Of a DNA stretch of 64,000 nucleotides, positions 21,249-59,337 are shown in pieces. Below the pieces are notes generated by a model. The model was not told the DNA's origin. It saw nothing but the letters and a program-made list of their open reading frames with translations, and made no database searches. Every line of letters begins with the position of its first letter. Positions within the stretch are counted from its first letter, which is position 1. The DNA is from Halichondria panicea. Taxonomy: Eukaryota; Porifera; Demospongiae; Suberitida; Halichondriidae. Where the stretch lies: the NCBI RefSeq assembly GCF_963675165.1, contig NC_087385.1:2356501-2420500 (forward strand). The letters run 5' to 3'. The position numbers and the translations under genes were made by a program.

Positions 21249-21797
21249 AACCAAAACTCCCACCATCGACAATTTTATTACATGATTGGTCATTCATTCG
21301 CTCTGATTCTGAAATCTGATCCTCGTTGAACTTTCTAATCTCATGATGTACGTATATCACTCTTGCGTGCAAGAACCACCATATTATTGCCTGTGATTGT
21401 GTTGTCATTGTACCTCATTCTCTACCTGCACATAATTATTATGATTAATATCTAAAACCTCAAGACTGTCACAGTGCGTTCATTAAACACCTTGGGGGGG
21501 GGGGGCGGGGGGGAAACCCACTAAAGTTTCATTTAATTAATGGGCGTGTCTACATCTGCAGACTCCATGGAGCCGGAGAGAGCTGCCGTGTAGCTAGTTT
21601 AATAATTAAAAAAGAAAAGTAAGAGTGAGCCTTCTCAGAAGGACATTTGATATATAGTGGAAATACAGTTGTGGAAGGTGACGATTATAAGTATTCATAC
21701 TAGATTAGATCTACCAGGATTAATTAATTAGATCTAGATCTGATCTACTGCACTGCTGATATGTGCCTTTTTTTACTTTTCGTACTAGATCTATATA
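21249..21797. promoter_or_regulatory. Spacer between LSM14 and kelch-kinase gene
   Basis: 549 bp lie between the two genes. The first part is the LSM14 3' untranslated region, with an ATTAAA-type signal near 21483. A G-run of about 18 with one C follows at 21494-21512. The rest is AT-rich with several AGATCT words (21705-21790), probably the upstream region of the kelch-kinase gene. No other gene is seen. Confidence 0.5.
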
Positions 21798-27700: not shown

Positions 27701-29191
27701 GCACGGGTGTCGTACAAGCTCCTCTGATGTCTGACCACGTACCACTGCCGTTTTCAAAGCTGTGTTCAAATCTCTTTTTTTTTCTCCTGCTGCTATATAG
27801 GTTCTTATGCATGTGTATATGGTACAATATATACTCTGGTTGTAAGACACTATAATATACAACCGCCGAGGGTTTCTAGTTGATTTTGTTAATCCCTTGC
27901 AGAATTGACTGGACCCTCGCCTGGAAAGTGGGCTCTCGTGGATGTTGCCTACAACGACACTAGAGGCTCCGCTCAGCGACTGGGAGAGAAGAGGATAATC
28001 AGACGAGCAACTGCTCGTGCCTCATTAGTCATGGAGACCAGCAACTACTCCTCTCAATACCGGGTGAGGGCTTTGGAACAACAGCTACTAGCATCAGAGC
28101 AGAGAGAGCAGGACACTCAACATCACTGTGAACTACTGTTGCAAGGAAAGGATCGAGAATTGGCTGCTCAAGGTCAAGAATTGACTGCAAAAGATCGAGA
28201 ATTAGCTGCTGAACGTCGAAATTTGGCTACAAAAAAACGTGAATTGATAGAGGCCAACCATCACTGTACAGATGCTGAGAGACAACTCAGAGAATCTCAA
28301 CAAACAGTCCAAGATGCCAACAGGAGAGAAGCTGACCTGTATGCTCAAATCACAGCTCTCAGGGTGGAGTTAGAAGGCAAAACAAAAGAGTTGGCAGCAC
28401 ACAACACAGAGGTGTGGAGGATTCCAGCCAGCAGAGTAAGAACCATGAGAACAATTGGTACTGGAGGGTGGGGGGAGGTGCTGGAGGGAACTGTGAAGGT
28501 GGCCGTCAAACGACTCTTTGCTGCCATTGTCAATCTACGCAATCTGGAGAGACTCCAGAGAGAAATGAGGCTCTTGGCTGAAGTACGGCATCCCAACCTG
28601 GTACAGTTCATTGGGGCAGTGTTTGACCAGTCCCCTCCTCTCATCATCACCGAGCTTTTGGACATGAATCTTCGACAAGCGTACGAGATGAATCAACTAG
28701 TACCAGGAAACCGCCTCTCGATCTTCATTGACATTGCCCAAGCTCTGGACTACTTGCACCAGCGCTACGAGCCTATCATCCATCGTGATGTGAGTGCTCC
28801 CAACGTCCTCCTCCAGCAAATGCCCAACCATCAGTGGAAGGGGAAGGTCTCTGACCTCGGATCAGCCAACTTTCTACAGCAGGCTCAGACGATGGGAGAG
28901 GGGGCCATAATCTACTCTCCTCCTGAAGTCATCCCTCAAGCTGCAGATCCATTTAATCCCCCTCTAAGGCAGTCTGTCAAGATCGATGTGTACAGCTACG
29001 GCATTGTCCTCTGTGAGGTGATCGCTAGTCGATTCCCAAGTGCTGAACATTATCGAGAGATGATTCTCCAAGTACAGAGAGAGCGACCCATTATGTGTGA
29101 GCTGATTGTCCGCTGCACTAAGAGAGACCCCAATGATCGACTCAGTATGGCACAGGTGCTCGTGGAACTGAACAAAATTGTACCTTTTTAA
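21798..29191 (+). CDS. Kelch-repeat / coiled-coil / TKL-like protein kinase, 5 exons
   Basis: Exons 21798-22320, 25031-25185, 25502-25687, 25796-25943 and 27903-29191 join in frame to 766 residues. Residues 1-337 hold about five kelch blades (YTFGGG, FFGGR, LVYGG, LVFGG). Residues 390-508 are a coiled coil with repeated KDRELAA-type heptads. Residues 512-762 are a kinase domain: glycine loop GTGGWGEV (523-530), VAVK lysine (540), catalytic HRDVSAPN (631-638), then DLG (655-657) in place of DFG, and SPPEV. The catalytic Lys and both Asp are present, so activity is likely. The sequence resembles the tyrosine-kinase-like group. The whole last module, coiled coil plus kinase, is in a single exon. 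The protein has no signal peptide or membrane segment, so it should be cytosolic. Its substrate is unknown. I recognise the architecture but no named orthologue. Confidence 0.88.
22864..23283. repeat. 420-bp pogo-like inverted-repeat element (family C)
   Basis: The left end TACAGTAGACCCTCGCTAAT mirrors the right end ATTACCGAGGGTCTACTGTA. The ends resemble pogo/Tigger-type CAGTAGACCCTCG termini with TA target duplication. No transposase is left. It lies in intron 1 of the kelch-kinase gene. A possible partial relative starts near 49661. Confidence 0.8.
24684..24946. repeat. Family B inverted-repeat element
   Basis: It begins TACCGTATTACTAGAATATT and ends ATTCTAGTAATACGGTA. An inner partial repeat of the left arm starts near 24760 (GAGCCAAATCAGCAGAAAAT appears twice). 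It ends 84 bases before exon 2 of the kelch-kinase gene. Confidence 0.75.
25283..25481. repeat. Family A miniature inverted-repeat element
   Basis: It begins TACCGTATAGCGGGTAATTT and ends in the inverted form CCCGCTATACGGTA. The arms extend through TTTCGTGGGGTAAAA. It fills most of the 316-bp intron 2 of the kelch-kinase gene and ends 20 bases before exon 3, so it must supply part of the splice-acceptor context. Confidence 0.85.
26020..26162. repeat. Family L inverted-repeat element, short copy
   Basis: The left end CAGAGGAGGTATGACAGG mirrors the right end CCTGTCGTATCTCCTCTG. The arms continue through GTGCAGCTCAAGCAA and its complement. The same ends bound elements at 37132 and 52933. It lies in intron 4 of the kelch-kinase gene. 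Confidence 0.75.
26165..26905. repeat. Diverged direct repeat pair in kelch-kinase intron 4
   Basis: The block 26165-26310 and the block 26754-26905 both start GGCTAGCTAGCT followed by CACGCGGCCTTTATT. Both also share AAGTGATCC and CCCCAGAACATA...CAGGAGCCA in the same order. The spacing between shared words has drifted. They are either an old local duplication or two copies of one dispersed element. Confidence 0.65.
26930..27370 (+). mobile_element. Decayed LINE (non-LTR retrotransposon) reverse-transcriptase fragment
   Basis: Reading across frameshifts gives, in order, short pieces typical of the region just before and at the start of a LINE reverse transcriptase: NPKKLFSKIETF, then LNDPIAIAEVFNSY, then SEVYQTLASLNP followed by a KTSG-type stretch, then traces further on. 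The order and spacing fit the family. There are several frame changes and stop codons. The call rests on motif recognition alone, and the subfamily is unclear (CR1/L2-like at best). Confidence 0.55.
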
Positions 29192-40578: not shown

Positions 40579-43311
40579 TTAAACAAATGAGGCACGGCTT
40601 TTGACAGAATTAATCAGGTCTAGAGCTGCTGGTAAAAGCACTTTCAAACTCTCAGTCATTTTATTCTTAGCGATAACACTCGGGAATTGCAGTGCAGCTG
40701 TTTTTGTCGAAGATACAAGATTCTTGATGGAGTCAGTGAGTTCATTACTGTTCGTTAGAATGGTTGCTTTTGTGTCCGTGTGCAAAATCTTTTGCGTGAG
40801 GGCATCGGCAATGTACACCAGCTTGTATGCGGCCACCACAGTCAGTTTGCTTTTGGTCACAAAGTCTCTCGGCGGCTCATTATCCTTGAGGCAATCAATG
40901 AATACGTCAATAGTTTCTCTCAAGCTTGGGATAATCAGATCGAGTTGCTTGCTGAATCTATCCAAGAGCTCACGATCCTCTTCTCGAAGAGGTTGCGGAC
41001 TACTGGTCTGTCGTACGTGATGGGGAATAAGACGTCCATTCGGTCGACCGTAAGGACCGTCCAATATATCAGCAGAGTTAACACGCCTCAGGGCAATTCC
41101 AGTCAATTCTTCGGAGGACCCAGAGCAGCTGCTTAAACTCTGCTCTCTTCGTCTTGAGCGAATGTGAGTAGGACTGGCATCTCGACTGGACCCAGAGTTC
41201 AGGCTTGCAAGGCTTGGCCTTTTGTTGAGGACTATGGAACGGTCTCGGATCTTGTCGTTAATCTCGTCATAATCTTCCGATTGTCTGATGAACATGGGTG
41301 AACCATTTGGGTTTAGATTAACCTCGCTTCCATAAGGACTGTTGGATTGTGACGTCTGTTCGTGAATCACTCTCTTTGGGGTTCGTACAAGTTTTTGCGT
41401 TGTACCGTAATTTGGAGCGTAGGGTAGAGGGGGTAGATGATCGTTTGGTTTGCGTTTACGGAAAGCGTTCATATCGATAATGTTACTTTCACTGAGTGTT
41501 TTCTCAGGTGTTTTGCGTCCACTGACGTATGGAGACTCAACTGGAATTGCGTAATCACCAGATGTTCGGACAGCAACTTGGGGTGGACGTTCAGGAAGTG
41601 GTCGGGCTTCGAGATCTCTCTTGGTGATAACAGGTAGACTGCTCGTGGAGACGTTTCGTACCTTAAACAGGAGAGCTTTATTGGCACCAACTAGTACAGT
41701 GAATTCTGTGACAGCTTTAGGGATAGCTCGAGCAACTTCCAGGAGTGATTTCACAGTGGCCGTGATGCTGTCAATTTCAGAGCTCAGTTGCTCTACTTTG
41801 GAAAGGATATCATTACGATTTTCCAAAAGACCTCTGAAAGCACTGGTGTATTTTTTCTTGAAGTTTGCATCTGAGGTACTCCCAAGAGCATTCACAACCC
41901 CTTTTCCAAATTCTAGCAGAGCCACCAGAGCCCTGTCGAAGTGTTTCACAGCTTGCCGAGTGTGTTTCAAAGTAGCGATTCGCTTTGCTTTATTTTCGTT
42001 GCCCCAATAAGCATCGGGCCCGTACACTGTTTGAAAAAGGACATCGTACGTTGCTTGCATGAGTTGTCGGTAAGAAGTGAGCAATTCTTCGGCCTCGTCA
42101 TCATACATCGTACTGATATCCACTGCAAGCATAGGCAGATCTCTCTCTTCTGTATTCACTGCACCTTTGTGCGGCTTAGGCAAGTCGTAAGTATCCATCA
42201 TTTCTGGAGGAACATCGTATATACAACTGGAGTTCCTTGAGCTACCAACAGAACTAGCACCCATCGAATTGCGATAATTAGAAGAACGATTGCTTTCCAT
42301 TGGGCTGAGTCGAGAAGAGCTAGGTGGGCGGTCGTAGTCCACTCCCTCATCTTGTGGTGCCTCTGGCGGTGGGAGGTCATAATCTCCGTCTGTGATCTCA
42401 ACGTCTGTAGGAGGCAAGTCGTAAATTGGGTTATCAATTTCATCTTTGATTGTTTTTTGTGGGAGGGTTGTACGGGATGACAGTGTTGCCTTCTTTGAAG
42501 GTTTGGGGATATCGTAGCTGGATTGTTCGTGAAAAATCTCCAGATAGTTTGCAGGAACCATACCCACTTTGCCTCTTAGTTCACACAGCCACCAGTCTCT
42601 CTGTTGTTTGAAATCTTTCTTGACAACAGTCACAACGTCCCCTTGTCTAAAGGTGAGCTCATCCTCATTCTCTGCAACATTGTTGTATCGTGCTCTGGCC
42701 AACAGGTGTTGAGATACGTCAACCATTTCCTGTGACAACAGAAAGAATTTGCACATGAAACTTAATTCTCTTTAATGCAAAAATTTAGACTCTTTGGCAA
42801 CAAAAATGAATTTCAACGCTAAATATGGCTATGGCCTATTGTGTATTGCATTCATAGGCAAGTGGCTAGGCACTTGATATACAAGTTGTCTGGTCAACAA
42901 AATAACATGGAATGTTGTGATGAGGGCCTGTAAGGTACTTTGTAGTTTGTGTAGCTAAGTAAATTGGTTGTGTATGCCAGTATTTCACTCCTACATTATT
43001 AAATATAGGCAACATAGCTGAGCCTATAAATGCACATTAGTTGGCTAGTTGCCATCATCAAAATGTACATACTGTGATTCAATGAGTGTAGCTACTATAT
43101 CTACATATAGATCTACGTACATGTATGTAAAATGCAGCTTGCACATACATGACAACCACATCTCATATTAATTTCATAATAATTATATATCATCTACTTA
43201 GCTGTTTATAGCTGTAGCCATTCAATGTGTGATATTGAATCTCAGTTTACAAAAGAAAATGAATCAACACACACTTACTTTGGTTATTTGGGGTAGCAAA
43301 ACTGCTGTCAT
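40579..43311 (-). CDS. BCAR1/NEDD9-like: CAS-family adaptor (p130Cas/NEDD9 type), 2 exons
   Basis: Exons 43279-43311 and 40579-42729 give 727 residues. The first exon supplies MTAVLLPQITK, so translation may instead begin at the Met in exon 2. An SH3 domain follows (LLARARYNNVAENEDELTFR ... WWLCELRGKVGMVPANYLEI). Next comes a substrate region with about six YxxP sites: YDIP, YDLP three times, YDRP and YDVP. A helical serine-rich bundle lies around residues 225-400, then a Pro/Ser-rich linker. The C-terminal domain keeps FVTKSKLTVVAAYKLVYIAD and SSTKTAALQFPS, matching the CAS focal-adhesion-targeting helices. By family it is a scaffold phosphorylated by Src/FAK that recruits Crk at integrin adhesions. 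Human p130Cas has about fifteen YxxP sites, so this one is shorter. It has one divergent neighbour, TMEM170. Confidence 0.94.
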
Positions 43312-43810
43312 CTCAAGGTACACAGGTCACTCTGTCTCTCAAAACTGCCACTAAAAATTGACCAAAATCCTGTGTATCTATTGATTTAGTTTGCTAGCTA
43401 TAATACTACAGAAACCTTTTACTAGCTAGGAATCACACTGCTTTGTAGCTGCTCAAAATTTTGTGAGCTAGCTAGCCTCTCCCTTTTAGTGATGTCCATA
43501 TCAGGAAGTACTAATGTTTAGGAATTTTACCACAACAATGCACAAGGAATGCCATTAATCTGATCTACAGAGTTCAGAGTGCAAAACAATAGATCGAGGG
43601 AGATTCAGACTCGTACCTTGACTGACAAGAACAGTACAGTGCAGTGAATTTCAGAACAGAGGACCTTATCAACTGGCTGAAAGGTACTGTGTACGGTACA
43701 CATTCTCTTCCTTGCTAGCGAGTTTGCTTGTAGGCTGTGCATCTACCTTTTTATTAATACATGTTTCTTAGGTTTATGTGCAGTGCAGTGCAGTGCTAGT
43801 GACTTTCAAG
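43312..43810. promoter_or_regulatory. Divergent promoter region of CAS and TMEM170
   Basis: 499 bases separate the two divergent start codons. Words TAGCTAGC and TTACTAGCTAG recur. No TATA box or known palindrome stands out. The head-to-head arrangement suggests linked regulation, but this is inference. Confidence 0.45.
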
Positions 43811-46800
43811 ATGGGAATTGAAGACATTGCTGATCCTTTGACGCCACTCCTGACTGTGACAGGTAGGTGCCTGGCTTCGTCTATTGTACCGTAGCCACTA
43901 TCCGTATTACGATGCAAGCACACGTATATCCATGCATATGCACTGCTGGTGTTGACGGAGTGGACAGGTACGCGATTATGACTACCGTAAAAAGTATAAT
44001 AAAGGCGCCAGAAATACATGAGCCTCTATTGGCGCTTATTTACGGGGAGGGGGGGGTCCACATTTTGTATGACAGGCCAAGTCACTTCCAGTCAGAACGA
44101 TTAGATTGACGACCACGTAATAAGTTTGATTGGCTTCATTTGGCGCACAATTGAGAGCGAAGAAAAATTAAACTGTTTGAGTGGGCGCTATTAAGATTTG
44201 AGTTGCGCCTTTTTTTTAGATAGATGCTTTACAGTATGAGCTTCATACATGTAGTCTACCTTAAGTGGGCGACCAAGTACTTTTCCTGTTCTAGTAGCTA
44301 GTTTCCCTCCTCACTGACAGTGTCTTTTGACATTATGACTTCAGATGTATTCACAGATATAGATAGTTACGGGAAGTGATTATTGATGTAGGAAAGCACA
44401 GGTAATTCCAATAATTATATGTTCCTAGGTCTTCTAGTCATTGGACGCCACTTGCAGCTAGAACCTGTCCGTACAGGTATATGTTATTTCAGTGTGAATA
44501 CCAAACCCTACGTGATGCATGTGATTGATTTTCTTTGATCACTGTGATTGCAGCTGCTTTTTTTTTGCAGTGACAGCATATTAGGATGATTTCAGAAAAC
44601 ACAATTTATGTGTTCTCTTTCAGCTGTTTATCTCACACTGCATACCTGTTTAATCCCAGCTTGTAGGCTTAGTCTAATGTTATAATAATATTACCGTGCC
44701 TACATTGGAATGTTGTGCATTTGCTCGGCTAACCTGATTAATTTACTGAGATGTGACATCAATACACACAAGATGCCTGCCAAACACATATTGCACAATT
44801 CTACATTTAGCAGGTTGCTATGGTTCACACACTTACTTGAAATGGGGCCACAAAACATTTCTATTGCTTGTTGGGTTGGCTATCAATATTCCTCAGTACA
44901 TAGTAATGGTGGCCAGCTACCATCCCCTCACTAAAGACATGTACACAACTTAAAAACCTACTGTACAGTGGATGTCTAGTATAAGTGGATGTCTACATGT
45001 ACCACATTCGATGGACTGGTGGGTGGGAATGCTTTCCTTACACCCACTATAGTCCATACACTGAGTGGCACTCTAAAAGTTAAGCCAGTTGTAATAGGGG
45101 AAGTATCCATTGTTTGTATGATAATCTGATACAATGCGTACGAATACTTGTGGCCTACGGTGGTCAAGAACGAATGCTAACTTTCAATCTCAATCCTCCC
45201 CCACTCAGAAATGTGGGGCCACGTGCTGTTCTGGTCATTCCTTCTGACCACCGTCACCTACCTTGTTGTGGGGGTCGTATGGGCTGTGTGTCTACGCAAG
45301 TGGAGTAGTCTTCTGGTTCCCCTTGGCTACCTGGGATATGCTGAGTTCACTGTGCTCACTACAGATGCAATAGCAAGTGAGTATACCCTAAAGCCATTTC
45401 CATTTCCTTACTGCCTTGTTCAATTCACTATTGAGTCTAGAAATGCACCCTAACGTGACACACCTATAACATTAGATGTAACTGCACTGTGGGAACAGGG
45501 TCAAAATGTTGTCACGCTTGTAGACTAGGATTCATGGTCTAATCGATTATTCCAAAATTACCGTAGTAATTTTGTCTACAGCTACATGTACCAGCGGCTA
45601 TGGTATGGTGTGTGTAGGTGGGCAGACAATTACCAGAGATGTTTGTGAGCTCATGCCTCTCTCACTAATTGATCATTATACATATTACATATTTGGTTAG
45701 ACGTGTAGGCATGAGAAACAATGCTGCATATCTCCCATAATTAAGTTAGCCGGTTCGTACGAGTCCGATGTGCCTTGTTAATGGATGGCTTCTCAGTATG
45801 TGTGTGTGGTGTCCAGCTGTGTACAGTATCAATGATGTTTGCTGAGGGAAGTGGTTTAGATGTGGGTGGCTGCATGGTGTATGGAAGCCTTGCTCTGCCT
45901 CCATTATAACCCACAAAGTTCATAATAGGCCATTTTATTGAGTCCGTGCATGTTCTGTATGTCGTTATGTTTGATTCAATTTCTGGTGAATTGATATATC
46001 TAGAGACATAAGTTTGTGTGGAAATTTTTTTAAGGATTCAAAAGATAAACTATAGTGTCCTTTTGTGACCTAGTATCAGTGGCTTTGTTAGACATGGCTC
46101 CTGTGACATGTGTTCGTTCTTAGACTCACTTTAAGCAAATCTTTTAGCGATTGTTCACATTTGTGAGATCCTGTTACTGTTGCCTAGCAGTAACCTAACC
46201 TAAAATGGACCTACTGATCCTAACAGCACTATTGAACTATACACTGACCCACCAAGTGATGATGTCACTCATTATGACACATAATTATGTCAACAGTTGG
46301 TAGCCTGAGACCTACCGCAGTGAAACACAGCATAGAATGTACCAATATGCGTCACTAATTACCTGGGAGTTATTTACCTAATATGGCCTAGGGCAGCTGT
46401 TGGCTTGTTTTCACCACCTGATCGGTATTATCATTATCTGGAGTGATACTGTCAATGCACTGTTTGAAGTACCTGTATCAGGGAGCTATTGCTTAATTTA
46501 AGCCTAAACACTGCGTGTATTCATGAATTTGCATGGGCTAACTCAAGAAAGGAATGGGTGGGTACATGCACATGATTATTGACCTAGGCTACATATAATA
46601 TGCTTTATGGACCATTGGAAAGAGCAAAATTTCAACAGCTTGTATAATGGTATCCAAAAGACTCTGATGAATTGTGTCCTGTTTGGTATTGCACAGTGTT
46701 TTGTACAACGCAGTTTACTTGTAATAATATTTACCATTCAGATTATACAATGTTGTGCTTTTGGTTGAAAGGAATGGTGCATGTCCACCTATTTGGGTGA

Positions 46801-49800
46801 GGGATTATCTCATGCTGGCTGAATACCCTGTTAAGATCAATTCAATGCCATATATGTACATGTATATGTCGCAGGTTACTTTTACCTTGATACGGTATGA
46901 CAGCCACTGTTCAGTTATCTAGCTGTTGTTTCAATGAGTGACAGTCATCAGCTGATGTCTCCAAGTAAAGTCGTATTCTCAATTATCGGATTCATAGGCC
47001 AGAGAGATATCAGTCCTTATTGGTCAAGTGATTTCACTCTGTTAATCTCCGGCAATCTTCCCACACACATTCTACAAACTTATACATGTAGTCACTGGCC
47101 TCAAAAATGCTTACCTGTAAGACACTCGAGAATGATTGGCCCTGACCATACTCTGAGGTAACTTTCTTCTTACGGTACTGAAGATCTACAGTGATTAATT
47201 AGTGCTAATAACAAATAAAGGCTAGCACTAACAAAGTGTATAGAGTACCATGCTCTGTTGGTTTCTGCTGATGCAGCCATTCACTTGATTCTTGGTATTG
47301 ATCGTTTTTAATAACAATCATGGTCGATCGTTATTTGATTTCCTCAGAAACGACAGAACTAATGCTATAATGTTAAGGCCACCTGCAACAGAATTAACTG
47401 TGTTGTTGTTCACACCTTCTTTGTAGTGTGTTCTGTATTCTGTAGCAAATTAAACAGTTAATTTGGTGCATTCTGTTAGACAGTTATAAATGTGAATCAC
47501 TTGTGAAACGATCGGCTTTGCCGATTTGCCTGCCATGGCTTGCTGTCACTTGTAGTCCTGCTTGGAGTGTATCAGTTCATTGAATGTATAATTGCAATGT
47601 AAATGTGTGGCTGTCACTATAGTCACTTAAGACAGACTGGAGAATTGTGGCTGCGATGAAGAGGTGGCCTACTATAATTATGCTATGGAGACTCTGGTAC
47701 CCCATTAACTTTGTATCTATAGGGCTTGCTTATAGGGTGATCAAAATAGACAGGTTTTACTGTAGCAACTATCAGTGAAATCAGTAGAGGATATAGGTTT
47801 CAATACACAGCCATAAAATTACATGTCTTGATACAAATTTGACCATGCACATTTTGTTGGTATCTCCTGCCAGAATATTCAGTCGGCATCCTGCAAAAGT
47901 CGTCTTTGCTCATAAATAGTAGGGTTTGTACAGTCACATCCCGTGTGTCTAGCCTTCTGAATTTCTGTTATTGTTGGCTGTTTTATGCTGTACGTATAGG
48001 TATATAGGTATATAGTGATAATTATGTGTAAAGTGTAGTGATCATGGAATTCTAATGTTAATATTTACGCTAGTGAGCAATATGATTAAATTATGCATAA
48101 CAGTATGTGAGGCAATGCTCTGTGCTACATGTACATGTACATGTATGTAGGGGTAGTTCAATACTGTTTTCCCAGATGATCTACAATAACTCAAGTTGTA
48201 CTAATTTGTCTCGTATACCATGTGACCCAGGGCTATTAATGCCAACATGCAGACTTAATGTTTTATTCTTAAAGAACATGGGAAATGTATTGAAAAGCCA
48301 GTGCCAGTTCCATGTTAGGTGTGTGTTGATGGCTCTCTTTCACCAGCTGAAAGGCTCTGTCTGTGTACATAGTGCGGCGCACTGGTAAGGTTAAATATGG
48401 AAAAACCATTGAAACTAACATTGAAATGTCATGTGCCATTAATCGAATATTTTTAGTGACCTAGCTCTTTGTATTTATAGAGACTCATCCTCATGTGAGA
48501 GAGCAACTGTATGAACTGTCTGGGAGCTCAAATGAGAGCAGTGTATTCCATGCATTGCAGTATCATATCATGAGCAGGTACGATCGTTTCATGGTGACGT
48601 TGTTTCCAAGACTGACGTCATTCAGCAGTGATTCTTGTTTACAATTCCGCTGCGTATTTGTGAAGACGTGTTTTGGTAATTTAAATCTAATTGCGCTCTT
48701 TCATGTACATAAGAATGCAATAACAGCCAGAGATTGTTATCTGCTATTAGAGAGCTTTCTTAGTGGATTGAAATTCAGACATATATAAATTATTGTCTCC
48801 CAATATTCACGATTCCTCCTCTTGCAATGTTAACGTTAAGTTCTTAAGGGATGAGTTTGCACCATTATATTCTGTTACTGGACATATACATTACACAAAA
48901 TCCTGTATCATAATTATAACTCATTGTTTACGTACGTATTAAATTTACTATTTACATCTGGAAGACTTTAATGATAATATTGTACATGAGCCATTAAATT
49001 CTTAGAATTAGCATAAATATACGTGTAACAAGGAAACACGGGTGTGCCAAACCTTATGCGTCTATGTTAATTTCCTCTGGTCATTGTGAGATCAAACGTA
49101 TGGTATTGCATGTAATGTCTTGTGTGGATGTGTGAGGTATTTGAATGCTACCCTGTACCCTTGACAATGTCAGCTGAGAGGGTAATAGGGTTGTGTTGAG
49201 GCTATGTCTCTATTCACAGCATTTGAGGCTGAACTCACAGGTAATCATCACTGTGCCATGCTTATAGACACCGTATGCATTACGTGTACATTAATTTCCT
49301 CTTTTCATTGTGACATCAAACGTACGGTATTGCATGTAATGTCTTGTGTGGGCGTGTGAGGTATTTAAATGCTACCCTGTACCCTTGACAACGTCAGCTG
49401 AGAGGGTAATAGGGTTGTGTTGAGGCTATGTCTCTATTCTGAGGCTGAACTCATTAGTCGTTGCAAATATCATCATTGTGTCATGCTTAGACTGCACCAT
49501 TGCTGTTGCTGAAAGTGTCTTACACACTGATTGGTGCCAGCTAGTCTCAATGACCTTTGTCAGGCTTTGTGTGGTCCCACACTCCTGGGCAGCATCAAGG
49601 CTCCATGGTTAAAAAGATGAATTTCATTATTAGAATTTCCACACTTGTGTCCAGACAATACAGTAGAACCTCCATTATCTGGCTGGGCCGGGCAAATTTT
49701 GGTAAAAATTTGTCAAGAAACAGGTGTGTCCCTTAAATGCATTCTATACTGTAATAACTATGCGGCCAAGTAGGTACAGTGTATACACAGTTCAATACAC

Positions 49801-49886
49801 TCAATAGACATGTTGTTTTTGTTATTCGATTCAGTTTCCTAGTCGTTGTCTCGGTACATGTCAGACTCGTGTGTGTAAAAATCCCC

Positions 49887-49939
<53 letters not shown>

Positions 49940-50262
49940 CACACTGTACTAATGTAACTCCAACCCTATATATACATAATTATACGTACAGTACTAATTT
50001 CCCTTTCCACACACACACACGTATTAATTTCACCTTGTCGCCCCACACACGTGTATTAATTTCACCTCACACACACACCCATGTACTAATTCACCTCCTC
50101 CCATCATGCACAACTACAGGTGCGTTTGTAGCAGGAATTTATTGGACATCTGGTTGGACAATGACGACGGGGGTTGCCCTCGGCTGGGGTCTGGGTCTTA
50201 GTCTGTTCTCACTCCTCCTGAACTCCGTCATATCATGTGCTCCACTCTACATATTTCTTTGA
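43811..50262 (+). CDS. TMEM170: TMEM170-family membrane protein, 3 exons
   Basis: Exons 43811-43862, 45209-45376 and 50120-50262 give 120 residues. The conserved EMW sits right at the exon 1/2 junction, followed by three or four hydrophobic segments (FWSFLLTTVTYLVVGVVWAV, then a glycine-rich pair around TDAIASAFVAGIYWTSG, then LGLSLFSLLLNSVISC). The order matches human TMEM170A/B (144 and 132 residues), which also have EMW before the first segment and an AIAGVY-type motif before the last. Sequence identity is modest, so the call relies on layout plus genomic neighbours. TMEM170A is an ER protein that influences ER sheet shape and nuclear-envelope form. Intron 2 is 4.7 kb, long for this window. 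Confidence 0.82.
49067..49455. repeat. Direct duplication, ~170 bp at 224-bp spacing
   Basis: Both blocks contain TTAATTTCCTCT, GGTATTGCATGTAATGTCTT and GCTACCCTGTACCCTTGACA and end in GAGGCTGAACTCA. Differences are few. The copies start at 49067 and 49291. It is a recent local duplication inside the TMEM170 intron. Confidence 0.9.
49889..49937. repeat. (CA)n microsatellite
   Basis: About 24 CA units, intronic. Further short CA runs follow to 50090. Confidence 0.95.
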
Positions 50263-50585
50263 AGTCACGTGACTGTCAGCTGGATCCGAGTGCGGCAGCC
50301 CCTCCCCCTCAGCAACTGATCACTGTATACACTATTGAACAGAGACTATTCCTATTACTAGTGAGTGTTGTGATCTGCTTTGTTGCTTTGTGTAAAGTAT
50401 GCGTATATTAATTCTGTATAAGAGCTGAGTATAATGAGTGGTGTGTTTATACATATCCTATAACGTGGAATTCATTATGAACAGTCAAATTGTGACATTG
50501 TGCACACAGTGAGTGAGTGAGTGAGTAAATGGGTTCAAATAACACAAACATTGGCAGTGTATGTATATATGAATGCCAGGCTATG
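50263..50585. other. Convergent spacer between TMEM170 and SMIM13
   Basis: 323 bases holding two 3' untranslated regions, with a GTGA tetranucleotide run near 50510. Nothing else is seen. Confidence 0.5.
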
Positions 50586-51027
50586 TCAATATTCAGGGGA
50601 CTGCTCTGTTTCTAAACAGTCGCTAGGTTCAGGCGTAACATGATCAAACCACACTTTCTTATTGGGTCTGCTAGTACAGCTGCCTTCTTTAGTTGCATGT
50701 CTTTGTACGAGTGATGATTTTAAATGTTGTCTCGCTTCAGTTCGCCTCTTGTTGGTTTGGTCCCTACTGTCATCATCGGCTGAGTTCTTGCCATTAAATA
50801 ACTCTCTGAACAGACCCAGGCGCGACAGCAAGACCTTCCAGATTATACCCCAACCTGATGACAGAAAATACTCTGTAATTAATTAATTAATTTATGCAGT
50901 GTACTATATTAAATACTAAATCATGGAGCTTACAGAGGAAGATAAATGCAAGCACGATCAGCACACTGAGAAGTAGTACCAGGGTCCCTACTAAAGTCTC
51001 AACCAGGTCATCAACAACGCCAGCCAT
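50586..51027 (-). CDS. SMIM13: Small integral membrane protein 13-like, 2 exons
   Basis: Exons 50934-51027 and 50586-50854 give 120 residues. An acidic N-terminus is followed by one hydrophobic helix (LVGTLVLLLSVLIVLAFIF), then CWGIIWKVLLSRLGLFRELF at the membrane exit. In human SMIM13 the helix is followed by a similar GWYFVWHLFLSKF and FLRELVGD stretch. The C-terminal half is polar and disordered, rich in Lys, Arg and Ser. The function of the family is unknown. It is divergent to CFDP1, with 133 bp between start codons, and convergent with TMEM170. Confidence 0.8.
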
Positions 51028-51160
51028 GTCTTGAAATTGAGTTTACTGCAGAAACTCACTACAACACAGTGGGCTTTAATTCGAAAAGTGTGAGTTTAAA
51101 GGTTATGTGGTAGTAGGTGTGAGGTCACGCCCAGCTATTACTTTAAAAAAGGCAATCAAC
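51028..51160. promoter_or_regulatory. Divergent promoter shared by SMIM13 and CFDP1
   Basis: Only 133 bases separate the two start codons, so both core promoters must lie here. It contains GTGTGAGGTCACGCCC near 51117, reminiscent of a nuclear-receptor or CRE-like half-site. No TATA box is seen. Confidence 0.6.
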
Positions 51161-54100
51161 ATGGCTGACATTTCTAGCGGTGAATCAGATGATGAGGAGT
51201 ACGTCCCTGAAGGTATAATATGAACAAAACAACTGTTAGTACTGATTAATGTTGCATCTGTTTTCTGTTTGGGTTACATATCAAGAGAGGTCTGCATCGG
51301 TGCTTCAACATTAACTCATTTTAAATAGAAACCTTAAAGAGATCGACCTCTCTATACAAAGGACACTGCTTCCATTCACTTTTCTACATAAATATAAATA
51401 CAGGGTTTCTTTTAAGATTTTGCACAAGTGAGTGAAAATGTGGGTTCTAAGTTAAGTACGTATCAAGCGGGTAAAAAATGGGGGTGATTTAATATACAGG
51501 TGCAAGTAGGAATTTAGCGGGTGAAAGGTAGAACATTTCAAGCTGGTGAAAATCTGCACTAAAATATTACTCTCTGAAAAGGACGAACATACCATGAATA
51601 TAATTATTGATTGGCCTCAGAGTTTTATGAAATACAGCTAGGTTCTGTTGCATGTACTTAATAGATGGTTGGTTTGTGCGTATGCAGGGGCATCCAGTGC
51701 GGCCAGTGACGAGTCCGAAGGGGAGTGGAAACCAGGGGGTGTGGTCAAGCGAGTGCGGAGATCGAGCAAGCCGACTAGAAGGAGTTCACGGAAGAGTGTA
51801 ACTACCACCCGAACCAGGTACGTAGTGGAAAGTGGGAAGCAACAGACAAATAAAATAACCTTAAAGCAATGATATAGTGACCGAGATAATTTTTTTTTTT
51901 TTATGAGTACTGTGAGGAGATCCAACATGCAGTATGAATCACTACATGTTCAGTTCTGATAGCGTGATAACATGCAGTCCCAGTGCACTGAACTTGTAGT
52001 GATTCACACTGCATATCGGAGCCCATGTGAGTGAGTTTGTTTTGTAGTTTGGATCTGCTAACTGTTGACCTTCTACAATCAATAAAACTCTTACTGCTTA
52101 TTAGAGCCCGCTAATAAATCATTCACCCATTTGTAGACTGTTTGTCGTGCAATTTTATTGTCTCCTCGTTAATGCAGAAACTGCTTGGCCTCATACATGA
52201 TTGTATGAATGGCCTCTGAATGTGATACCCTAGCTCCCTGAAATTTGACCTAGCTGTAACTGATAATGAATATAACCAGCTAAATATTTCCTATATTATT
52301 ATTATAGCATTGGTATAATTTGGCAATCTTTAATTTGTCGACCCTCACCTGAACTCGCCAAATCAGCCAAAAAGTTGCATAGTTCCTTGTATACAGCCAA
52401 TAATTTCGCTTGTAAGTCTGTACTCTCTCTTGAAGTAAACATTTTCCTTCTGCAAGAATGTCGTTTTTGACCAAACTGTCTAATCAATCACTTAATTTGT
52501 TGGAACCTTCTGAACAACAATGAGTTAGTGTGCCCTTATAATCATTAGAGTTTCTCTTCTTGGAATGCAGTGTGTCACGTACCATACTATACATGTGCAT
52601 GTACATAATTATAATTACGATGTTGCCAAAAAAACCACCAGTGCTCACTTTGAAGTAACCGGCATTGGACAGCTACATGTGTGTGTACCTGCATACTTGG
52701 TTTTGCTACTTGATGTATATCAAATTGCATTCCACCAGTTTTAGCCACAAAATCTCCTTTACCTCATGCAAGAGGAATGATTAGTATTGTCACTGCATTG
52801 TTGTGTATCAATGTGTTCGATACCCTCAGCCAAATACATTGATCTCTCCGGAGATTGCACGGATTGTTTATAGGCAAGTATTGTCTTCTAGGAATGTGTA
52901 TCTGTAGTTGATTGGTTCCACTAGGGGCTACTCAGAGGAGGTTGGACACGATCACGTGCACCACTTTTTTTGCTGAGCTGGCACAAAAATTAACAATGAG
53001 TTCTATGTAAACTTCTAGCTGGTGTTGCACGGTCATTAGAGACTGAAGGCAAACTTTATGTGCCTCGCTGGCTTCTTTTGATATAAAACTTTCATTAACC
53101 AACCCGATCCCCACCGATCCCCTCTATTCTGGTGAGTTATCAGTGCATACAGTGTTTACTAGATTCTTGACAGCCAGTACAATGCAAGCTTCATACAGCA
53201 CTGCGCTAAACTATATTCTACCCTATAGTCTAGCTAATCTTGGTCCAGCCAGACAACAGACACAGCTAGTCCGATGTTACAAGTCAGTAAAGCAAGAGTA
53301 TCCATAACTTTTTTATTACAGTTATTCTGTATCTATGGTAACGTGAGCAGAGACCTTAGGAATGTCACATGATTGATGACGCGTGGCCAACCTCCTCTGG
53401 GGGCTACTGGTAATGCTGAGGACCACATTGATTTGTGGCTGTGATACGTTTGGTTGAGCTCTAGACTTTTACTCCATACAGCGAGGGTCTTTTGAACTCT
53501 ATATTCGTCGGTAGGCCGTACACGTCCAGTATGTAGTTGATACCTCTGTGTGCCATTCATGCAGAGCTGCATTGAGGGGGAGAGGGAGGGGTACCCTGGG
53601 CCTGGTTTTGCCACCTAGATCTAGCAGATTCATTTAAAGACAGTTTGTGCTCCTATAATTATGGCAACTTATGAGCTGAAATTGCCAGAATTAACCCTCA
53701 AATATCCACATTTCCCCGGGGGACCACCCTAGTTTGGAGTGAACTTGGTGCATGCATACGCAGAAGGGGGACTTCGCCTTCCCTACATTTTTCATTTGCC
53801 TCTGGCCCAAAATTTTAGATGCAGCCCTGTCTGGTACATCTAATAGAACACTGCATCTTGTTATTTTTGTTAAAGAGGATGTTTATATACAAAAATTGTA
53901 TAGTTTTTATAAGACTTCTGCACATGCCAGCTCTATCCTTGTCTTGTGGTCACCTGTTTTCAAACAATAGATTTTAATGAATACATTTAGCAGCATTGTG
54001 CACCGATTAGATTTCACTGTTGTGGTGTGTTATAAATTATACTCTTTAACGTTGTTTCAGCACAACTAGGAGACTGCCACAAAAGGTTCGTAATCCATCT

Positions 54101-57100
54101 AATTGCTAGACAAGTAACAGTTTTTCCAGTCGTTACACAATATTCTCACAATTAGTCGTCCGTTTTGGTTTTCTGTGGTTTTCTGTAGGAATGCTTGGAA
54201 TGTATTGGCAGGTGTTGTGTCTAGTACTCTGTTCCCCCGTCATATCTAATCAGCACAACATGGAGTGTTGGTACAAGACCGCCCACCTCTATCTAAATAC
54301 ACCTCCTTGCAGCTGTGTAACATTTTCACTTAATTTCCGAGCTTGGGAAAAATGACATTTGTAGGGTTGTTTGTTAAATTTATTTGAAGTAGATGCCAAT
54401 GGTGTGTGTAATAAGCTTCTGTAAAACTAGCACTATCCTCTTTGTTCTCAGTATTGTTTGCACACAAAGTTGTTTAAATGTTCTTGTGGTATGACTCAAC
54501 AATTAAGTAGTGTTATGCTTGCCCACGTTCCCGTTGTCAGCCTAACGGTCTCCTATACATGTCAGTGCATGTACTCTCTAACTTGTCCTCCCTCGCTATT
54601 TGATGGTTTATATATTTGTAGGAGTAGACGAGGAGGCATCAAACTCAGTAAATATGTATCGAGTGATGAAGACGATGATGATGATGAGGGTGAAGCTAGC
54701 GAAGGAAGTGAGGCTGATGAGGCTGATGAGGGTGTGGATGGTGGTGATGGTGGTGATGGCAGTGAGGGTGGTGATGGTGCTGGCGGTGCTGACGACAGTG
54801 ACACTGATGAGGAGGACGTTGCTACTACTGTGGCCAAGCCATCAAATAAAAACTCTTCAAGAATTGATGATCTCTGGGCCTCGTTTAAAGAAGATGTTGG
54901 AATTCCAGCTAAACAAGAGAAGGACGCCAGCAATGAAAAGGTACATGTAGGCTATGTTGAATAGCATTCCTTGAGTGCCTATAACTTGAGTCTGGATTGT
55001 CTACTGTACACTGTACATGCTCTAAATAATGCACATGTATGTCACATGTGAATGGCAAGAAACCAGTGCTAGTGTACAGTTAGCTATTACAGTGTAATAT
55101 TTAACTACGTAATTATTTTGATCAGTAATTGTCTTCCTGTCAGCTATTGCCCTTGTTTATCATACCCTCTCTTTCCCTATAGCCTAACACACTGTCCTAT
55201 ACACATTAGTTATGAAGTACACGCGCATGCACATGTAGCTAGGTCATTAACGTTTCCATAGCATCCCTGTGTTGTTGTCATGGAAAGCACCGTTTGCCTT
55301 GTTATTCATCACAAGATCCTAACAACACATAGTGTCAGAGTGTGGGAGGCTCTGCCAGCATATGCTTAGTCTCTACTCAGGTAACCAGTCCGAGGGAGTA
55401 GTAACTATACAATGGTGTGTTGTTAAACCTCTGTTGTTTGTCCCAATACATCTGTGGGCACATGTTTATGCTCCACTGGTTCACTGTAAAGGTGGTTTAC
55501 TATTCAAAAAGCTTGGCAACAATTTAGAGCATGTGAGAAGAATGGGCCTATATTATTATATGTACACTGTATGACTTTTTGTGCATGTGTGTACGTTCAA
55601 CTGATTTTACCCCAAACTTGTTGTTTGTGTTACATGGTTCTATTTTCAGTGGCAAGATCACTGCACTGTTGTCTAATAATGTGAAGCAGTTACATGTAAG
55701 ATTAACTGTTGTTCTTTTCCTTGTAAAGGACCCTGTTGCTACTGGCACACTGCAAGCGGAGAAAGAAGACGACATTTTTGCTAAAGAAGGAATGAATAAA
55801 ACTGTGTCCATTAAGACGAAATACGATTTTGCTGGAGAAGAAGTCGAGTGAGTGCATGGGGGCATGTACATCATTATCAGCTGCATGCAGAGAGTAATGC
55901 ATAACTTTGTAGCAGAGTTAAAAATAAAGTTGATGCTGGTTGTCTCCCAATGACATGTACATACGTGGATAGAGTGGGCCATAATTATGGTAGCACATTG
56001 TATAGAGGGTTGCTGTCTCCTTTATTGGAGAGAGTCTTAATGAGTTGTGCCTGCCCTCGATGATTGAATACATACAGTCGCACACCCACTGCTGTGGTTG
56101 CTTAAATATGGTCAGACCTGACAGATTGCCCAAATAAAGCTTTCTTCGGTGGCTCTTTCATTGTGTGACTAAGCTAGGGTTGATGGGCCGTGGGCGAGTG
56201 TGCTTCCCAACTGTGTTTGCCGTGGATACAGATATACGTACACCTGTAATAGTATGTTGCCTACCAACGAAGCTAATGAACGAGTGTTGGTGTCAGCAGT
56301 AACTGCATCATGGGCTACACTACTTTGGTTGGTGTACTAGACAAGTGGGTACTCGTAACATACACCCTGTAATATAACTGAGTCGTACTTCTTTAGATGC
56401 GGACATACATGTATTTATTTATTCAGTGTGGTTTTTACCGTATCATAAAATAAGTTATGTACAAGCTTATAGTTGACTCAGTTTTACACTATGATCCGTA
56501 TTGAGGTCTGTGCCGTATACAATTTGTGATCACCTATAAGTACATGTAGGTCCACCCTCTATAATAATACAGTTTGCGTCTGTATTTGACATGCAATACA
56601 TGTACTCGTGATATTGTGTTCCGGAGTCAGTTGAAGTTTTGAGTCTTTTTACTTCCTCCTAGAGTGGAGAAGGAAGTGCGGGTAGACTCTAAAGAAGCTA
56701 AGAAGTTCTTTGAGAGCCAATCCTCCACACAGCCAGCAGAGAAAATGGATCAGGAGGCTGGTCTACAAACAGGGTGAGGCTAGTTTCATTATTTTTTAGG
56801 TGATATTGGTAAATCGAATTGCAACTTTTTGGTATATGTAAGTTGGTGATCACCATTCTGCACTGCTGCAGTACTAAAAGGAAGGGGTCTGGTCTCGGCT
56901 CAGTCCTGGATTCGATTGGGAAGAAACAGAAAATGAGTACACTGGTGAGTACTGTATGTCAGCGCTTGCATGCAGCTACACGTACGTGTATATGTACTCT
57001 TATTTCTGTGAGCCTGCATGCAAGAACTTTTAATAGGGATTTTACAAATTGCATGGTGAACATTTGGGTACCAGAGGTGACTAGCCTACAATGTAGATAT

Positions 57101-57968
57101 GTAGGATGCTTGATCCTCGCCGACGGCCGTAGCGATATGCACGCTGTTGAATTTTCTGCGTTCTCTGGGAATGATTGTGGGGGGGTTATTTGTAAAATTC
57201 CCACTTATTCCATCACGCTTTAAGCGAGTGAAAAATCACTCAAACCACCATAATTTCCCTCTTCTTGATTTAGTGTTACGTACCTAGTTTTTGATGACTG
57301 TAGAACTTCCACTGTTGAATGTTGGTGCTTTGAGCAGTACACAATGTAACAATGTAAGGAAATCCCTTGCTCATCATTGTTCTATTGTGCAGGAGAAGTC
57401 TCATCTTGATTGGCAGCAGTTCAAGACCAGTGAGGGTCTGGAGGATGAACTAGCTCATGGCACTAAGGACGGGTGAGTGGTGATTGAGTGTGTTCTAGCT
57501 AACACTTCATGTAACTACACGTGGATGGATGTCTCACCGTCCTGTCATAAACATTAAGACATGGCTATAAATATGCAGTTGTGATCATGATCACTGCTGT
57601 GATTGTATTGTACAGTACCAAGCCTACCACCTCAAGCCTAGATCTTTATGGTGGTTTTAGTTCTACTGCTACATGTACATGCAATTATACTTTACAAGTG
57701 ATAACTAAGGATCACTGTGTGTGCAGTGTGCAGTGAACACATTTTTGTTTGTTACCGGTGTTAATATTCAAGTGTCCATTCTATATAGTTAACCATGACC
57801 CATAACAAATTGTATGGATGGAAATATATGTCATGATATCCAGCTTGTACACTTCACTCTCCGGTGTACAGGTACCTAGCGAAGCAAGAGTTCCTTCAGC
57901 GAGCTGACCTGAGGCAGTTTGAGCTGGAGAGAGAACAGAGGCTGAAGAGATTCAAAAGACTACACTGA
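51161..57968 (+). CDS. CFDP1: Craniofacial development protein 1 / BCNT / Swc5 homologue, 8 exons
   Basis: Exons 51161-51212, 51688-51817, 54622-54940, 55729-55847, 56663-56773, 56872-56944, 57393-57472 and 57872-57968 give 326 residues (human 299). The N-terminal half is acidic and low in complexity, with a Gly/Asp/Glu run in exon 3 (GDGGDGSEGGDG). The last 80 or so residues are the BCNT-C domain, with KKQKMSTLEKSHLDWQQF and EFLQRADLRQFELEREQR, nearly collinear with human. In yeast, Swc5 is part of the SWR1 complex that deposits H2A.Z, and CFDP1 is the animal counterpart linked to SRCAP. It should act in the nucleus. Exon 2 to exon 3 joins in frame (Arg codon split AG/G), skipping a 25-base exon-like stretch at 54061. 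Confidence 0.94.
51927..52014. repeat. 88-bp foldback hairpin
   Basis: The arm ATGCAGTATGAATCACTACA pairs with TGTAGTGATTCACACTGCAT with few mismatches, extending through TGTTCAGT / ACTGAACT. The loop is about 30 bases. It lies in CFDP1 intron 2. Confidence 0.75.
52933..53399. repeat. Family L inverted-repeat element
   Basis: The left end CAGAGGAGGTTGGACACG and the right end CGTGGCCAACCTCCTCTG are mirror images and share ends with copies at 26020 and 37132. The arms extend outward through GGGGCTACT / GGGGGCTACTGG. It lies in CFDP1 intron 2. Confidence 0.75.
53562..53829. repeat. Family F inverted-repeat element, second copy
   Basis: The ends are CAGAGCTGCATTGAGGGGGA and AAATTTTAGATGCAGCCCTG-like sequence ending 53829. 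It shares purine-rich and GGCAGATTCATT-type inner words with the copy at 31655. Confidence 0.65.
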
Positions 57969-58155
57969 CACTTTGTTTTCATATACATAGAAATCACTTT
58001 CCATTTTTCTCATCATACCCATCATTAATTTTTTTGCATATAAACACATGATTGTCTACATGTAGTGTTAGTTGACATAATATGATTTGGATTTTTGTTT
58101 TGGTAAAGATCGTTAGATCTGGATCTAATATAATAACATGTAGATCTAAAATGCA
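57969..58155. promoter_or_regulatory. Short spacer before PM20D2
   Basis: 187 AT-rich bases between two plus-strand genes. It must hold the CFDP1 polyadenylation region and the PM20D2 core promoter. Words AGATCT recur near the start codon. Confidence 0.45.
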
Positions 58156-59337
58156 ATGGCCTTAAAGAAGAAAGTAGCTAGTATGGTAGTCGACAGTAAA
58201 GCACAGGAGCTTTCTCAGCTCAGTAGTGAACTACACAGAAACCCTGAGCTTGGTTCTGAAGAGTTCAAGGCTCATGAATTACTGACAAATTTCCTTGAGA
58301 AGGAAGGTTTCACTGTAGAACGCTCCTACACTGGTATCGAAACAGCTTTCAGGGCCACCTTTGGCTCTGGGAGACCCAATGTGTGTGTGATCTGTGAGTA
58401 CGATGCTCTGCCTGAAATCGGTCATGCATGTGGACACAACCTCATAGCAGAGGCTGGAATTGCCGCTGGTTTGGGTTTGAAAGCTATTCTAGAACCGAGT
58501 GATGCCTCGAAGGGAACAGTAATTGTGATGGGCACTCCTGCTGAAGAAACTACTGGTGGAAAATTAAATTTGATAGAAAATGGAGCCTTCAACGATATTG
58601 ATATTGCCATGATGGTCCACCCTTTTCCTCTGAATATTGTTCAACCGGACTTTATCTGCTCAGCTACGAGAATTGTTACTTACACTGGCAAGGCGGCCCA
58701 CGCTGCTGCATTTCCCTGGGAAGGAGTGAACGCACTGGATGCAGCTGTGATGGCCTACACCTCTATCTCTGCCCTCAGACAGCAAATGAAGCCAACTTGG
58801 AAAGTCCATGGAATCATCACCAACGGAGGAGCCAAACCAAACATCATACCAGAGAAAGCTGCTATGGAGTACTATATTCGAGCACCAACTAAAACTGAAC
58901 TTGTTACACTAGTTGAAAAGGTTACTTCATGTTTTGAAAGTGCTGCTTTGGCAACTGGATGTCAAGTGGAAATAAATACGCCTTGTGCAGATTTCTTGAA
59001 TATTGTTCATAACCCAACTCTTTCCGATCTCTACCTGAAGAATTTGACAGAGCTAGGAGAGAAAAGCACAGAGATGATATCTGATTCTCCTGTGAAAGCC
59101 TCTACTGATATGGGTAATGTCTCACACGTTGTACCCTCGATTCATCCCATATACGCTATCGGCTCCGGTGAAATGAACCACACTCGAGAATTCACTGCCG
59201 TGACCAACACCCCTGAGGCGCACACAGCTACTCTGACTGCTGCCAAGGCCATGGCTCACACATGCATCGATGTGCTCACTACTAGCGGACTGTTAGAGAA
59301 GATAAAGCACGAAAAACAAACTACAAATGTTAGCTGA
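58156..59337 (+). CDS. PM20D2: PM20D2-type M20 amidohydrolase, single exon
   Basis: 393 residues in one exon (human PM20D2 436). The N-terminus carries the M20D family motif ELHRNPELGSEEFKAHELL. CEYDALPEIGHACGHNL (about residues 79-95) and TPAEETTGGK hold the expected metal-binding and catalytic residues (GHACGH; E of the AEE pair). The dimerisation domain follows (TGKAAHAAAFPWEGVNALDA). By family it hydrolyses beta-alanyl or gamma-aminobutyryl lysine-type dipeptides and acts in carnosine metabolite repair. It is cytosolic, with no signal peptide. The absence of introns is notable beside intron-rich neighbours and may reflect retroposition or intron loss. An ATG six bases upstream is out of frame. 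Confidence 0.93.
   Translation: MALKKKVASMVVDSKAQELSQLSSELHRNPELGSEEFKAHELLTNFLEKEGFTVERSYTGIETAFRATFGSGRPNVCVICEYDALPEIGHACGHNLIAEAGIAAGLGLKAILEPSDASKGTVIVMGTPAEETTGGKLNLIENGAFNDIDIAMMVHPFPLNIVQPDFICSATRIVTYTGKAAHAAAFPWEGVNALDAAVMAYTSISALRQQMKPTWKVHGIITNGGAKPNIIPEKAAMEYYIRAPTKTELVTLVEKVTSCFESAALATGCQVEINTPCADFLNIVHNPTLSDLYLKNLTELGEKSTEMISDSPVKASTDMGNVSHVVPSIHPIYAIGSGEMNHTREFTAVTNTPEAHTATLTAAKAMAHTCIDVLTTSGLLEKIKHEKQTTNVS

Follow-up and report, generated by a model that had tools for sequence, protein, structure and literature searches.

Four adjoining genes on a sponge chromosome

The stretch of DNA analysed here (the window; 64,000 nucleotides, C9:2356501-2420500) comes from the demosponge Halichondria panicea, which has a 131-Mb genome in which chromosome C9 accounts for 7054234 bp. 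Positions 40579-57968 of the window are occupied by four adjoining genes, CAS (minus strand), TMEM170 (plus), SMIM13 (minus) and CFDP1 (plus), which we refer to as the block. A preliminary description of this DNA had proposed these four calls, with their strands, within 17.4 kb, and all of them held when judged by Pfam cut-offs and spliced gene models; the ends of the block at 40579 and 57968 even coincide to the base with the stop codons of CAS and CFDP1. The genes form two divergent pairs, CAS/TMEM170 and SMIM13/CFDP1, that are joined tail to tail with the stop codons of TMEM170 and SMIM13 lying 323 bp apart. All introns of the TMEM170, SMIM13 and CFDP1 models are of the GT-AG type and their phases agree. 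In window coordinates, the features are as follows:

42726-40579, minus strand: CAS, coding sequence in 1 exon, 715 residues
42727-43810: CAS/TMEM170 head-to-head gap between start codons, 1084 bp
43811-43862, plus strand: TMEM170 coding exon 1
45209-45376, plus strand: TMEM170 coding exon 2
45377-50119, plus strand: TMEM170 intron 2, 4743 bp, the longest intron between coding exons of the block
50120-50262, plus strand: TMEM170 coding exon 3 including the stop codon; whole protein 120 residues
50854-50586, minus strand: SMIM13 coding exon 2 including the stop codon; 2 coding exons, 120 residues in all
51027-50934, minus strand: SMIM13 coding exon 1, with one hydrophobic stretch (by eye)
51028-51160: SMIM13/CFDP1 divergent interval between start codons, 133 bp, candidate bidirectional promoter
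51161-57968, plus strand: CFDP1 (BCNT family), 8 coding exons, 326 residues
51161-51212, 51688-51817, 54622-54940 and 55729-55847, plus strand: CFDP1 coding exons 1-4
56663-56773, 56872-56944, 57393-57472 and 57872-57968, plus strand: CFDP1 coding exons 5-8

The CAS product has the architecture of the CAS scaffold family, with an N-terminal SH3 domain (SH3_9, 49.2 bits against a cut-off of 30), YxxP motifs, a serine-rich region (Serine_rich, 28.7 against 26.9) and a C-terminal CAS_C domain (116.1 against 25). Its open reading frame (ORF) contains YDIP, YDLP, YDRP and YDVP, several of which are kept in an alignment of 16 sequences. CFDP1 carries the C-terminal BCNT domain at residues 250-320 of 326 (91 bits, cut-off 22.2), and TMEM170 matches the Tmemb_170 family over residues 14-107 of 120 (48.5 bits, cut-off 29.5). 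A search of the genome with the family PF10190 gave no match, whereas a query with the TMEM170 protein did. SMIM13 contains the domain DUF4750, which we take to be the SMIM13 family, at residues 11-54 (44.5 bits, cut-off 27).

TMEM170 and SMIM13 are short proteins, and the SMIM13 call depends on a single 44-residue domain match, but it seems very improbable that either was wrongly called, i.e., is non-orthologous. Both exceed curated cut-offs, and the TMEM170 model, which alone of the four was set against an annotated protein of the species, is identical over all 120 residues to P0005, named "transmembrane protein 170B-like [Halichondria panicea]" by NCBI. The part of SMIM13 encoded by exon 2 is kept in all four relatives in the protein collection, none of which is labelled with a name or with a vertebrate source.

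When searched against their own genome, TMEM170, SMIM13, CFDP1 and CAS each have one full place. CAS gave 17 other matches at E values up to 1, all within query residues 5-89, i.e., the SH3 part, and TMEM170 gave a single match elsewhere (E 0.4). All four sponge genes are thus single-copy, as would be the case for pre-duplication relatives of vertebrate paralogues.

The spacing of SMIM13 and CFDP1, whose start codons are only 133 bp apart, falls well within the range of bidirectional promoter pairs (divergent starts less than ca. 1 kb apart), and from this spacing a common promoter region is very likely. The wider gap between CAS and TMEM170 probably contains a 5' non-coding exon of CAS, as an intron acceptor can be recognized by eye directly upstream of the CAS start codon. 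No further gene was found among the four in a partial search covering 10 ORFs from introns or intergenic DNA (79-107 residues), which gave no Pfam match over the cut-off; these were drawn from 83 ORFs of at least 60 residues between 38 and 60 kb, coding ones counted. Rfam at gathering scores had no match in 38000-60500, and thus none in TMEM170 intron 2, where four of the tested ORFs lie without exceeding the Pfam cut-off; one ORF of this intron, 48465-48785, was considered as SPACA9 and rejected (E 0.08, below the cut-off). The intron is a possible site of regulatory DNA. It also holds two direct copies of a 157-nt sequence (49059-49215 and 49283-49439) that are 93% identical.

Vertebrate counterparts and ancestry of the block

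Vertebrates have four CAS genes, BCAR1, NEDD9, EFS and CASS4. Two of these lie with relatives of the other block genes, and the two further copies seem to have kept CAS alone without the three partners. In the excerpts of published work that we draw on, human BCAR1, CFDP1 and TMEM170A are found together on chromosome 16 (PMC10417793, PMC11259988), with CFDP1 flanked by BCAR1 and TMEM170A in a synteny reportedly kept in zebrafish (PMC10417793). Like the sponge block, this locus unites CAS, CFDP1 and TMEM170, but SMIM13 is not named there and CFDP1 sits between the other two. On human chromosome 6, SMIM13 lies tail-to-tail with NEDD9, a pairing that is described as highly conserved among vertebrates (PMC5826361). 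A gene list from pig runs GCM2, ELOVL2, SMIM13, NEDD9, TMEM170B, ADTRP and HIVEP1 (PMC7823679), and a list from mouse gives Nedd9 and then Tmem170b, adjoining, without naming Smim13 (PMC3723895). This second locus shares SMIM13, CAS and TMEM170 with the sponge, although only the pig list names all three. It differs in that CFDP1 is not named and that SMIM13 is tail-to-tail with NEDD9, whereas in the sponge it has this arrangement with TMEM170. The two human gene groups that the preliminary description had named are borne out, the first by papers on chromosome 16 and the second by the SMIM13-NEDD9 pair on human chromosome 6 together with the pig trio. The four families are linked in the sponge, as seen in its sequence, and in vertebrates, as reported in these papers; linkage has been kept while local order has changed.

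We consider it highly probable that these genes were passed down as a neighbourhood that was already linked before the sponge and vertebrate lineages split, and the block resembles a piece of an ancestral chromosome preserved by descent. Chance or independent assembly in the sponge, for which the order unlike that in human could be quoted and for which there is no positive evidence, is extremely improbable, given a likelihood of P ~2e-11 (uncorrected for choices) that three given single-copy partners fall no more than 17.4 kb from CAS in a genome of 131 Mb and given that further families of human 16q also lie on C9.

This wider relationship of C9 was assessed with a list of seven families fixed beforehand, six of which have their human members on 16q and one, SSR1, on 6p24. 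Locations were obtained for four of them: VPS35, COG4 and NOB1 are on C9 at 1.0-1.4 Mb from the block and COQ9 is on C12, while GLG1, SSR1 and NUP93 remained without location. With an expectation of 5.4% for each family, which is the share of C9 in the genome, three hits on C9 correspond to a binomial P of 6e-4 among the four located families and of 0.005 among all seven listed. Because three of the four located families are on C9, we conclude that C9 shares ancestry with human 16q and that the block forms a compact portion of this shared segment.

Closer to the block, we read 100 kb on either side of the window, which contain 63 ORFs of at least 140 residues, and picked 10 of them by eye for Pfam. 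Five exceeded the cut-off, as HYDIN (two ORFs), LCAT/PLA2G15, GINS3 and RPP40; of the other five, two had matches below the cut-off only and three had none. Nine ORFs inside the window but outside the block were tested in the same way, and RB-like, LSM14, kelch and glycosyltransferase-90 families were over the cut-off with a UBE2Q-like ORF under it. The RB-like, HYDIN, RPP40, LCAT and GINS3 families lie 30-132 kb from the block. The human places are 16q22.2 for HYDIN, 16q22.1 for LCAT/PLA2G15, 16q21 for GINS3 and 6p25.1 for RPP40; the RB-like family has RBL2 at 16q12.2, but also RBL1 at 20q11 and RB1 at 13q14. By this placement, five of the nine over-cut-off families outside the block (M20 peptidase counted) are represented on human 16q or 6p25. 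The retinoblastoma-like gene itself lies at window positions 6464-10580 on the minus strand, with RB_A over and RB_B under the cut-off; a reading of this gene by eye as CDT1 (6.5-10.6 kb) was dropped in view of the RB_A match.

Linkage of block genes is also suggested by other sponge sequences. The SMIM13 protein P0004 and the CAS protein P0013 (80% identical) each come from a contig of 452232 bp with the same source label, and the SMIM13 protein P0001 and the TMEM170 protein P0009 each come from a contig of 2300 bp, again with the same source label. These are two coincidences among 4 SMIM13, 5 TMEM170 and 106 CAS matches (H. panicea counted; the best 8000 candidates were scored in the CAS search), and many other contigs are too short to show linkage. 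Because size and source label of the contigs agree, we infer that they are the same contigs, which suggests linkage of block genes in one or, most likely, two further sponge species. A search of genome and viral contig collections with the 16-sequence CAS alignment gave 18 and 26 pattern matches, respectively, of which none was confirmed.

Several points weigh against a common inheritance of the block and its surroundings. The gene order of the sponge block differs from that in human, and the same-contig reading in other sponges is drawn only from equal sizes and source labels. The count of five in nine families is post hoc, from ORFs picked by eye and without a control region. LSM14, kelch, glycosyltransferase-90 and M20 peptidase, all near the block, fit neither 16q nor 6p24. 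GLG1 and SSR1 gave no match in the genome when searched from the prior list; SSR1 was the only 6p24 family on that list, and the wider link to 6p24-25 depends on RPP40 alone, which was picked by eye.

Linkage in a demosponge and in vertebrates probably dates the block to their common ancestor, and the time depth at issue is over 600 million years. The preliminary description had dated it to the last common ancestor of animals, a date that applies only if sponges rather than ctenophores are the first branch, or if the block is present in ctenophores too. At the parting of sponges and vertebrates, CAS, TMEM170, SMIM13 and CFDP1 would have been neighbours on an ancestral chromosome with kinship to human 16q (and 6p24-25), and in vertebrates this segment would have been copied by whole-genome duplication. 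One descendant copy would have kept CAS, CFDP1 and TMEM170 (the BCAR1 locus) and another SMIM13, CAS and TMEM170 (the NEDD9 locus), both with altered local order, while in two more CAS copies none of the three partners would have survived. Common descent followed by duplication and complementary losses would link the sponge block with its vertebrate counterparts. An early-vertebrate duplication after which one copy lost CFDP1 and the other SMIM13, as proposed previously, fits this course of events, but its picture of two copies falls short of the four vertebrate CAS genes.

Ancient metazoan microsyntenic units were reportedly described by Irimia and colleagues in 2012. They have been re-tested in the sponge Amphimedon by Gaiti et al. 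2017 (PMC5429095). They resemble the block in that unrelated neighbouring genes are linked from sponges to vertebrates, but they are pairs, whereas here four families in one sponge block cover two vertebrate loci. The main text of PMC5429095 contains neither BCAR1 nor CFDP1, and that of PMC8851819 none of BCAR1, NEDD9, CFDP1 and TMEM170; PMC12866310 holds five of the six gene names, only far apart in a list of many genes and with no statement of linkage. We did not find a four-gene link uniting the two vertebrate loci stated in the literature searched, though supplementary lists were outside this search and may hold it. Ancient microsynteny as such is already known, and what may be new is a set of four genes bridging both vertebrate loci. 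It makes one early-animal neighbourhood visible as a whole, of which the BCAR1 and NEDD9 loci can then be seen as remnants that complement each other.

Retention and regulation as possible reasons for the linkage

The block offers a concrete case for asking whether a neighbourhood lasts by shared regulation or by slow decay of an ancestral chromosome. Passive retention would mean that the block is a slowly rearranging piece of an ancestral linkage group, without selection for these four genes, and we rate this explanation at slightly better than even. Other 16q families and one 6p25 family are present on C9, some of them within 30-132 kb of the block, and the short intergenic distances mean that breakpoints seldom land between genes. 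Head-to-head genes that perhaps share promoters are also called common in Amphimedon (PMC5429095). On the other side, the nearest outside neighbours do not carry on the human order, and linkage alone leaves the direct adjacency of the four genes unexplained.

Alternatively, enhancers or promoters of CAS could lie inside the introns of its neighbours or in intergenic DNA, forming a genomic regulatory block in which rearrangement is selected against, which we regard as possible but somewhat improbable. Published human data point in this direction: the variant rs4888378 in an intron of CFDP1 reportedly acts at a distance and implicates BCAR1 (PMC10417793), TMEM170A and BCAR1 expression is associated with it (PMC11259988), and BCAR1 is reported to be lower in a Cfdp1-knockout cell line (PMC10417793). 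Similarly, the table of a migraine study gives BCAR1, CFDP1 and TMEM170A for rs77505915 at CFDP1, and a retinal super-enhancer at CTRB2/CTRB1 is described to loop to CFDP1. Adult enhancer-like signatures are stated for 43 of the 60 conserved microsyntenic units of Amphimedon (PMC5429095), and large introns are found in the Halichondria block as well (4743 bp for TMEM170 intron 2 and 2804 bp for CFDP1 intron 2). However, apart from these introns the support comes from human and Amphimedon, and the set has been split apart in vertebrates. In addition, the association of rs4888378 with expression extends to LDHD, which lies beyond the block (PMC11259988), and proximity alone can yield shared expression quantitative trait loci in human.

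The two explanations are not exclusive, and passive retention accounts for the data at least as well as selection. The presence of other 16q families (and one 6p25 family) on C9 means that survival of the block needs no special selection, so that the earlier suggestion of selection to stay together, drawn from the tight linkage, is not required. Shared promoters or intronic enhancers are nevertheless plausible in view of the 133-bp gap and the human regulatory data. The four genes would most likely function separately, with a divergent promoter region common to SMIM13 and CFDP1 at the least; they would have remained neighbours chiefly because breaks within so tight a spacing would strike promoters or genes.

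We know of no pathway that is common to the gene products of the block. None is evident from the literature either, since TMEM170A is described as a protein that promotes sheets of the endoplasmic reticulum (PMC9804665) and CFDP1 as a chromatin protein. The head-to-head pairs of integrin alpha and beta genes in Capsaspora (PMC5560861) are comparable as divergent pairs kept for very long, but their products act together, unlike anything known for the sponge block. A more far-reaching idea is that the block is a regulatory unit predating the sponge/vertebrate split, in which CAS shares enhancers with TMEM170 and CFDP1; the ancestral SMIM13/CFDP1 pair would then have been divided between the two vertebrate loci, and the human BCAR1-CFDP1-TMEM170A disease locus, which is tied to artery disease (PMC11259988), would retain a regulatory arrangement of the first animals. 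We consider this unlikely.

Other gene families around the block

Several repeated gene families surround the block. M20-peptidase-like genes form a tandem array on both strands that includes window positions 58150-59337 and C9 ~2421500-2443700, with the copy inside the window having been tested by Pfam. These copies share a nearly unchanged stretch of ~60 residues inside otherwise diverged sequence, which resembles gene conversion. Neighbouring kelch and kinase-like genes flank the block on both sides (window 21789-29188 and C9 ~2432300-2436200) and suggest a duplicated pair; the kinases were called by eye, while the kelch ORF of the window was tested by Pfam. Further along C9, tandem LCAT/PLA2G15-like ORFs at ~2488500-2499700 include three similar ones, one of them Pfam-tested, and at ~2457500-2475600 a tandem series of immunoglobulin/fibronectin-like receptor genes, whose repeated exons resemble one another, can be recognized by eye.

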